This document shows, piece by piece, positions 33,628 to 35,800 of a stretch of 64,000 nt of DNA. A program made the position numbers and the translations under genes. The notes beneath the pieces are model-generated. The model saw nothing but the letters and a program-made list of their open reading frames with translations, was not told where the DNA came from and did not search any database. Location of the stretch: contig JAAYCN010000067.1 of NCBI GenBank assembly GCA_012729755.1, forward strand, positions 1 to 64,000, given 5' to 3'. This DNA comes from Chloroflexota bacterium (GTDB lineage: Bacteria > Chloroflexota > Anaerolineae > Anaerolineales > Anaerolineaceae). The stretch's first letter is position 1. Each line of letters starts with the position of its first letter.

Positions 33628-34149
33628 TCAGAGGCGTTGGTCGCAAAGAGAGCGGTAGCCGCAAGCTCTGCAGCGCGATGTCTGGTGATGGGAACGGTTA
33701 GGGAACACGGATTGACATTCGCAGGAGCGCATCGCTGTGATCACCTCTATTAATACTGATTCCTGCTGTGGGGTGTAATCGATTTGGAAGGTTTTATCGG
33801 CGTAGCGGATCAAACCGTGGGGCGGGCGCCGCCCATATGATATTTCGCATAAATAGCAATAGGCAGTCAATTGTAAAACATGGGAATCGTAAGGCCGATC
33901 TGGCGCGGGATGGCTTTTGTATTCAACAGGGATGAACGTGCCGTCTTTAAGAGCGACGATGTAATCGGGCTTGCCTGCCAAATTGAGGGCTGAATCGTAG
34001 AGCGGTCGGGGCAAACTTTGAAAGACCCGGTTGTCGGAATAGACAATTTTACCGGAGGGGAGGCCGGATTGGTGAGCTTTATAGCGGCTGAGCAGAAAAA
34101 ACAAACCAGCCACCACCAGAAGGAGCAGGCCAAGTTGAACGGTCGTCAT
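33628..34149 (-). CDS. Cas4-like PD-(D/E)XK nuclease, C-terminal half with N-terminal TM helix
   Basis: MTTVQLGLLLLVVAGLFFLLSRYKAHQSG TM; KPDYIVALKDGTFIPVEYKS (D..ExK), LQLTAYCYLCE (QxxxY-like), C-terminal CRACGYRSLC. Confidence 0.8.
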   Translation of the reverse strand: MTTVQLGLLLLVVAGLFFLLSRYKAHQSGLPSGKIVYSDNRVFQSLPRPLYDSALNLAGKPDYIVALKDGTFIPVEYKSHPAPDRPYDSHVLQLTAYCYLCEISYGRRPPHGLIRYADKTFQIDYTPQQESVLIEVITAMRSCECQSVFPNRSHHQTSRCRACGYRSLCDQRL

Positions 34150-34373
34150 CGCAACAAGCTCACAAAAATCAAGGCGAGGGCGATCAGCAGGAGGCCTAAC
34201 GCCAGCCATTTGAGCAATATGCTGATCTTGGCGTTAAATGCGTGTTGGCTGTGGTGGAACTTGCCGTTCGCTAGCGCAGCCGTGTTTTCGGAGGCGATTC
34301 CCTGACGCTGATACCACCAGGCGCGTCGGCAGTATAGAAAAGAGCCGAGTTCGGAGGCTTTGATCGTACACAT
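34146..34373 (-). CDS. Cas4-like N-terminal half with C-terminal TM helix
   Basis: MCTIKASELGSFLYCRRAWWYQRQGIASENTAALANGKFHH then ISILLKWLALGLLLIALALIFVSLLR*; 4-bp ATGA overlap with the next gene. Confidence 0.75.
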   Translation of the reverse strand: MCTIKASELGSFLYCRRAWWYQRQGIASENTAALANGKFHHSQHAFNAKISILLKWLALGLLLIALALIFVSLLR

Positions 34374-34451: not shown

Positions 34452-35090
34452 TTATGCAGGGTCATCCAGCTGTTTAGAAAGCTTGGAAAGAGCCGCTTCG
34501 AGCTCACTCTGGCGGAAAGCCACAGTGATATCAGCACGTGTACGCTCAATAATGCCACGCGCAAGATCAGTGCGGCGACGCAATCCATCAGTAATAGCAT
34601 CAGGATAATCCATGGTAACCAGCTGAGTGAAGACGTCATCCATCGCTGCGAGAAGGCGTTCGACTTCGGCTGAATATCCGGGGCGCAGCAGGTCAAGACA
34701 GCGTCGGCGTAATTCCCCAAGGGTCTCGGTAAGGCCATTGAGGTAAGCGGCTGGTTCAGCGCCAAGATCTTCGGGAGTTGGCAATTGATTGCCGCGGATT
34801 AACGCGACTGTCAGATGAGCCTCGACATGTTCTTTGAGTGCGTCCTGGGTGTAACCGGCGAAATAAAGATCTGGATGAGGCGCCAGGCTGGTTTTCAACT
34901 CCTCAGCCAACCTTTTGCAGGTGTCCAGCTCAAGGTCAGCCTCGGCGTGGTCTTCACGGTGAACCGCGCGAATGGACAGAGAGGCATGTCGGGTAAGTTC
35001 CCGCGCCTTGCTGAGCGCCTGATCGCGCAGAGCGGTTTTTTGATCGAAAACCTGGCGAATCTGGTTGCAAATATCATCGAGATCAGGCAT
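34452..35090 (-). CDS. Translin-family protein
   Basis: All-helical; C-terminal LRRRTDLARGIIERTRADITVAFRQSELEAAL resembles the translin signature. Confidence 0.7.
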   Translation of the reverse strand: MPDLDDICNQIRQVFDQKTALRDQALSKARELTRHASLSIRAVHREDHAEADLELDTCKRLAEELKTSLAPHPDLYFAGYTQDALKEHVEAHLTVALIRGNQLPTPEDLGAEPAAYLNGLTETLGELRRRCLDLLRPGYSAEVERLLAAMDDVFTQLVTMDYPDAITDGLRRRTDLARGIIERTRADITVAFRQSELEAALSKLSKQLDDPA

Positions 35091-35407
35091 TAATCCTCGC
35101 TACCTGAAGTTTGGGGACCACAGGGTCTGAAGAGGTCGTCAGCAAGGGTATGACCGCTGGGTAAACGAATTTCGCCGAAGGTGGCTTCGTAGCGGCGCAG
35201 GTTGTCGGTGATGGCATGCTGCATCAACTTCATCCCGAGGGGTGAAAGAATGACGCGGGTTGAGACCTTGGGGTCTTCGACGCCGGGAAGCACCGCGGTG
35301 AAGTCAAGCACAAATTCGCCAGGGGTATGGGCGATGCGCACCATATTGACGAATTGTGCTTTGAGGTCTTCGGGCAGAACGACGTTCAGAGGTTTGGCTT
35401 CGGACAT
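35090..35407 (-). CDS. DUF3467 family protein
   Basis: VRIAHTPGEFVLDFTAVLPG...VSTRVILSPLGMKLMQHAITDNLRRYEATFGEI. Confidence 0.8.
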   Translation of the reverse strand: MSEAKPLNVVLPEDLKAQFVNMVRIAHTPGEFVLDFTAVLPGVEDPKVSTRVILSPLGMKLMQHAITDNLRRYEATFGEIRLPSGHTLADDLFRPCGPQTSGSED

Positions 35408-35410
35408 GGT

Positions 35411-35800
35411 TTAGAAGGGAATATCGTCGTCGCCGGCGTCGTCCATGCCGCTGGGTGAGCCGCTAACCTCGCCCTTGGCAGAGAGGAAGCGCACGTTTTC
35501 AGCAGTGACCTCATAGCTGGCAGCCCAGGTGCCGTCTTTTTTCTGGAAAACTCTGGGTCCGCCGTTGGAATCTGGGGAAAGGCGACCTTCTACGAGGACT
35601 TTGGAGCCTTTTTGGAGATATTGGTTGACACTTTCGGCTTGTTTGCCCCAAACAGAGACGCGAAACCAGGTGGTTTCGTCGTTGTCTTTGTATCTGCGGC
35701 TGGTAGCGACACTGATTTGGGTGACAGGATTGCCATCGGGGGTGAAGCGCATTTCGGGGTCGCGACCGAGATTACCGATGATGATTAGCTTTTGATACAT
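35411..35800 (-). CDS. ssb: Single-stranded DNA-binding protein
   Basis: MYQKLIIIGNLGRDPEMRFTPDGNPVTQISVATSRR; acidic tail DDAGDDDIPF. Confidence 0.95.
   Translation of the reverse strand: MYQKLIIIGNLGRDPEMRFTPDGNPVTQISVATSRRYKDNDETTWFRVSVWGKQAESVNQYLQKGSKVLVEGRLSPDSNGGPRVFQKKDGTWAASYEVTAENVRFLSAKGEVSGSPSGMDDAGDDDIPF

Follow-up and report, generated by a model that had tools for sequence, protein, structure and literature searches.

A predicted two-chain, membrane-anchored Cas4-like nuclease encoded by Chloroflexota genomes and by plasmids of other phyla

Introduction

Single-chain Cas4 proteins bind an Fe-S cluster through four cysteines and form a nuclease site from His, Asp, Glu, and Lys residues. 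The CRISPR-associated members (PF01930, TIGR00372; 8d3l, 4ic1, and 4r5q) combine the PD-(D/E)XK fold with a 1 + 3 arrangement of cysteines, a motif-I histidine, the D/E/K residues, and a Q-Y motif. The same fold serves DNA processing outside CRISPR in AddB/AdnAB, Dna2, Exo5, and ACE1 (9iab; Argonaute-associated Cas4 family). To our knowledge, in each of these proteins one polypeptide supplies both the active site and the cluster, and none has a transmembrane (TM) helix. Cas4 family genes outside CRISPR, termed solo-Cas4, have been described in many Chloroflexi, in which they are mostly vertically inherited (Hudaiberdiev et al., 2017; PMC5704561).

In this work, we describe a pair of adjacent genes in a Chloroflexota bacterium, here called UP and DN. 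Each product is very probably anchored in the inner membrane by a single TM pass, and the two together very probably form one Cas4-like nuclease of the Fe-S PD-(D/E)XK type at the cytoplasmic side of the membrane. The pair shares the fold, the 1 + 3 cysteines, the motif-I histidine, the D/E/K residues, and the Q-Y motif with CRISPR-associated Cas4 but differs in having two chains, a TM helix in each, and no adjoining cas1 or cas2. Like the solo-Cas4 of Chloroflexi, it belongs to the Cas4 family outside CRISPR and is mostly vertically inherited. That solo-Cas4 set probably counts DN among its members, and the available part of its description mentions neither a split nor a membrane anchor. No membrane-bound or split Cas4/RecB-family nuclease was found in the literature searched, which included only a minority of subscription papers.

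Gene Organization and Domain Assignment

The two genes lie on the minus strand of a 64,000-nucleotide stretch (hereafter the window; contig JAAYCN010000067.1, positions 1 to 64,000). UP (34146..34373; 75 aa) starts with the ATG at 34373 and its stop codon ends at 34146; DN (33628..34149; 173 aa) starts with the ATG at 34149 and its stop codon ends at 33628. The UP stop thus overlaps the DN start in the tetranucleotide ATGA at 34146..34149, exactly as an earlier sequence-only reading of this locus had described. UP contains the segment SELGSFLYCRRAWW, the putative cluster cysteine Cys15, the motif-I residue His41, and a TM helix at its C-terminus. DN begins with a TM helix, followed by a PD-(D/E)XK core (D62/E76/K78), the Q93/Y97 motif, and three cysteines (Cys160/163/169).

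Upstream of the pair, on the same strand, are genes for a translin-like protein (34452..35090), a DUF3467 protein (35090..35407; PF11950, E = 2.2e-17; 15 loci), and a single-stranded DNA-binding protein (SSB; 35411..35800; PF00436, E = 1.2e-29; 18 loci). The translin-like gene is the upstream neighbor of UP in many relatives, with the same cluster found in 23 loci. The name of its product looks doubtful because NCBIfam and Pfam point different ways: the match to PRK14562.1-5 (E = 3.9e-75, below the cut-off) carries the family title 'haloacid dehalogenase superfamily protein', and the match to Pfam Translin is weak (E = 0.0014). The order SSB, DUF3467, translin-like, UP, and DN is frequent in Anaerolineae and in many families continues with NAD kinase, a zinc-finger membrane protein, and RecN. 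In one Anaerolineae locus (L045:8868-9386), the gene in the NAD kinase/RecN interval encodes a 173-aa protein with a zinc finger and a hydrophobic part but without an NCBIfam match. Other lineages have different neighbors of the pair, for example an M50 peptidase gene.

The two products divide one Cas4-type domain between them. DN matches positions 53-158 of the Pfam Cas_Cas4 profile (E = 3.3e-8) above the curated cut-off, as it does PDDEXK_1, and UP matches positions 4-51 of Cas_Cas4 below the cut-off (E = 0.0028), so that the halves tile a single profile end to end. In three genomes in which the two frames coincide (G125, G068, and G046), one PDDEXK_1 match (profile 4-247) runs through UP, the stop codon, and DN. 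Among 11 diverse DN members, Cas_Cas4 was above the cut-off in all 11 and PDDEXK_1 in 10. The cut-off of the NCBIfam Cas4 equivalog TIGR00372 (65 bits) was not reached by either half (DN, 61.1; UP, 14.7). UP is thus predicted to be the N-terminal and DN the C-terminal part of a single Cas4/RecB-family PD-(D/E)XK nuclease, and the Cas4-type similarity that the sequence-only reading had proposed is clear.

Predicted Structures and Membrane Topology

The AlphaFold2 model of DN, built with 59 relatives, has a mean pLDDT of 83, with a TM helix at residues 2-27, a PD-(D/E)XK core modeled with high confidence, and a Cys-rich tail modeled with low confidence, perhaps because it needs the partner chain. 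The top Foldseek match of this model is the Cas4 subunit 8d3l from the type I-C Cas4-Cas1-Cas2 complex; with the profile matches, DN has both the core fold and the sequence signature of the Cas4/RecB-family superfamily. Further matches were ACE1, SSO0001, MGME1, AdnAB, and Dna2; Exo5 is also in this list and AddB is absent from it. Modeled alone, UP forms two helices (pLDDT 87) for which Foldseek returned no significant structural match. Among PDB sequences, UP is most similar to the N-terminus of this Cas4 chain (8d3l), although the match is weak (E = 0.17).

The hydrophobic helices at the end of UP and the start of DN are conserved nearly throughout the family. The median 19-residue Kyte-Doolittle maximum is 2.64 in 149 UP homologs and 2.35 in 166 DN homologs, and a 19-residue window above 1.6 is present in 99% of UPs and 98% of DNs, in agreement with the one helix per half at the break noted earlier from the window alone. 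Such a segment is absent from the corresponding part of 24 single-chain Cas4-type proteins (Kyte-Doolittle maximum 1.09). The mean net charge is +2.9 in the 15 residues preceding the UP helix and +2.9 following the DN helix, whereas the opposite flanks are close to neutral. Under the positive-inside rule, this charge pattern predicts a cytoplasmic location for both catalytic parts.

Distribution, Phylogeny, and Genomic Context

The search covered 151 genomes of the same genus, family, and order (Anaerolineales, Chloroflexota, on the evidence of named relatives). DN was found in 109 and UP in 108 of these; 107 have both, two have DN only, one has UP only, and 41 have neither. When only good-quality relatives are considered, the pair is present in 72 of 88. 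A contig search with the protein of a close relative gave 80 named Chloroflexi loci. In a sample of 400 genomes across the phylum, an UP match accompanies every one of the 86 strong DN matches (E < 1e-50; counted by hand), which come from the class of the window as well as from elsewhere in the phylum; additional families contain more diverged pairs. Most of these genomes are draft metagenome assemblies, and the deep sampling is of Chloroflexota. Pairwise identities of UP and DN correlate at 0.94, a sign of strong shared phylogeny, and few of the sequences are independent.

In a catalytic-domain tree, 30 split forms and 24 single-chain forms are separated by a branch with support of 87/93, and 90% of bootstrap trees require one change between the two groups. 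Copies from Bacillus subtilis and Paludisphaera fall among the split forms. The former is found on plasmids of about 65 kb (plasmid NRS6107_2, L228:2176-2914), annotated as 'hypothetical protein' and 'Dna2/Cas4 domain-containing protein', next to helicase and toprim genes. The latter is on plasmid PALBO2 of Paludisphaera borealis (Planctomycetota; L227:2651-3432), has a 4-nt overlap, and is flanked by umuDC and a DNA methyltransferase gene. In both, the halves are separate genes and TM helices mark the break, and the arrangement is thus not confined to one phylum. A search for phage or viral copies of the split pair found none.

The pair appears to be distinct from CRISPR. The window contains no closely spaced direct repeats of a CRISPR array, and neither cas1 nor cas2 adjoins the pair, as the sequence-only reading had stated. 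An intact cas4-cas1-cas2 set lies on another contig of the genome (C82), and its Cas4 is one soluble chain, unlike UP/DN. Because the genome has this separate set, we consider UP/DN a non-CRISPR enzyme and reject a function as a CRISPR adaptation protein. Presence of the pair is also not linked to cas1 (p = 0.23). Taken together, UP/DN represent a novel form of Cas4/RecB nuclease, which has the fold, cysteines, and active-site residues of the family, and departs from it in CRISPR context and in the single soluble polypeptide, being encoded as two chains in 164 loci with TM helices nearly throughout.

For the cellular role, we tentatively favor membrane-tethered DNA-end processing in repair or recombination. 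The gene context is of the repair type in many relatives, with SSB upstream and RecN downstream, although this order may have been inherited within one class. Two more specific links were considered: a substitute for AddAB was rejected, since AddB-like genes occur in 20 of 107 genomes with the pair and 9 of 41 without it (p = 0.65), and a link to competence was set aside, since ComEC is nearly universal and hence uninformative. The main rival is that the same two-chain membrane nuclease serves in defense or control of DNA entry by cutting DNA of phages or plasmids, or transforming DNA, on its entry into the cytoplasm at the membrane. Incoming DNA would suit a membrane location, and defense or repair has been proposed for solo-Cas4 in the available part of its description (PMC5704561). 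The neighbors of the plasmid copies, namely DNA methyltransferase and umuDC in Paludisphaera and helicase and toprim in B. subtilis, are in line with defense and also with repair or recombination. However, the frequency of the pair in good-quality relatives is housekeeping-like, no recurrent defense genes adjoin it in Anaerolineae, and the lack of a link to cas1 also speaks against defense, which we regard as possible but rather unlikely.

Conserved Residues and the Proposed Enzyme

In the alignment of UP homologs, S7, E8, C15, W19, G37, and H41 are invariant. The full set of metal-binding and catalytic residues, with four cysteines and H, D, E/D, and K when both chains are counted (UP C15 and H41; DN D62, E/D76, K78, C160, C163, and C169), is retained in 146 of 149 aligned pairs. 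Among the three exceptions, two have a gap at the UP cysteine and one (L129) has Arg instead of His41. The proposed partition, with one cysteine and motif I in the first chain and the catalytic D/E/K and remaining cysteines in the second, thus holds far beyond the window. As the set is divided over UP and DN, the predicted active site and Fe-S cluster would be shared between two chains.

In the enzyme that we propose, UP would contribute C15 to the cluster and H41 as the motif-I histidine, whereas D62, E76, K78, the Q93/Y97 motif, and the remaining three cysteines would come from DN. As two TM helices take the place of the continuous chain of single-chain Cas4, neither half would be complete by itself. 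We infer physical assembly, an Fe-S cluster, nuclease activity, and a role for this complex.

It is improbable that the complex is a catalytically idle relative that binds DNA ends or senses redox or iron through a membrane Fe-S cluster. The available part of the solo-Cas4 study (PMC5704561) describes a Cas4 derivative of the archaeal virus TTV1 that is inactivated and has a structural role, and a diverged Chloroflexota side branch (f33; L134 and L138) has DNs that lack the catalytic D and E/K and retain three cysteines and the TM helix. These two pairs are possible pseudo-enzymes on sequence grounds. Against this reading, D, E/D, K, and the UP histidine are conserved nearly throughout the aligned pairs, the pair in the window included.

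Separation of the Two Genes

Among 164 distinct DN loci, 147 have UP on the same strand no more than 3 kb away, and an in-frame fusion of the two was found in none. Neither a fused relative nor an indel that would join the two frames was seen among these loci. The break, with UP ending and DN starting in a TM helix, is the same at all loci read, and the junction itself is variable: the exact 4-nt (-4) overlap occurs in 48 distinct relatives, and the rest show anything between some 20 nt of overlap and a spacing of more than 1 kb. In more than 30 Anaerolineales, UP and DN are separated by an inserted HEAT-like gene that is unrelated to them and about 210 codons long (e.g., L167, L168, and L192); in Pfam, this gene resembles PDS5/Cnd1 only weakly.

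At least five lineages retain both halves at unlinked positions. In a 3.3-Mb genome assembled as one contig (G349), DN is at 244,712 and UP at 3,051,906; the halves are 887 kb apart on a single contig in G427 and 182 kb apart on opposite strands in G484. They are on separate contigs in 10 further genomes (G105, G118, G037, G461, G296, G422, G184, G401, G442, and G139). The unlinked UPs have the cysteine, the TM helix, and a possible start codon in 13 of 13 cases, and the histidine in those read. The unlinked DN remains by its old neighbors, for example NAD kinase and RecN in G037 and G105 (L107 and L069).

These patterns bear on how the two frames are expressed. A single fused product, arising at the overlap through programmed frameshifting or read-through of the stop codon, would fit the 4-nt frame overlap of 48 relatives. 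However, it is very unlikely given the variable junction geometry, the TM helix that DN retains at its own N-terminus, and the start codons at the expected place, and it is rejected by the HEAT-like insertion and the unlinked halves; for the family, unlinked halves rule out a fused product and indicate that two independently expressed chains suffice. An artifact in which one gene was split by a sequencing indel, a recent frameshift, or pseudogene formation is hardly credible: the 4-nt overlap by itself permits it, but the same break in 164 loci, the genes between the halves, their separation, and the invariant active-site residues speak against it.

The break, the helices, and the metal-binding and catalytic residues are conserved over more than 140 distinct pairs, and the arrangement is therefore not a product of chance or of a sequencing slip. 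The lack of fusions, the inserted genes, the unlinked halves, and the near-perfect co-occurrence strongly support two membrane-anchored chains, as had been suggested from the window. The translational coupling suggested with them is not essential, since gapped, gene-interrupted, and unlinked forms exist.

Conclusion

In the sequence-only reading, a membrane-bound, two-chain Cas4-like enzyme outside CRISPR would be an unusual system; the pair is not peculiar to one genome, being phylum-wide and also carried by plasmids. On plasmids, DN is annotated as 'Dna2/Cas4 domain' or 'PD-(D/E)XK' and UP as 'hypothetical', and counts of solo-Cas4 may therefore include half-enzymes. The plasmid matches show that other phyla merit the same search, and the B. 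subtilis copy is experimentally tractable. The finding raises the questions of what purpose is served by keeping a DNA nuclease at the membrane, how two chains jointly build an Fe-S cluster, and whether activity is gated by assembly. The pair probably represents a phylum-wide integral-membrane enzyme whose cluster and active site would form only when two single-pass proteins meet, such that activity would be gated by assembly, and a distinct non-CRISPR branch of the Cas4 family that plasmids also carry. Its conservation across the phylum and beyond, together with the separability of its halves, implies selection for membrane placement and for two-part assembly.
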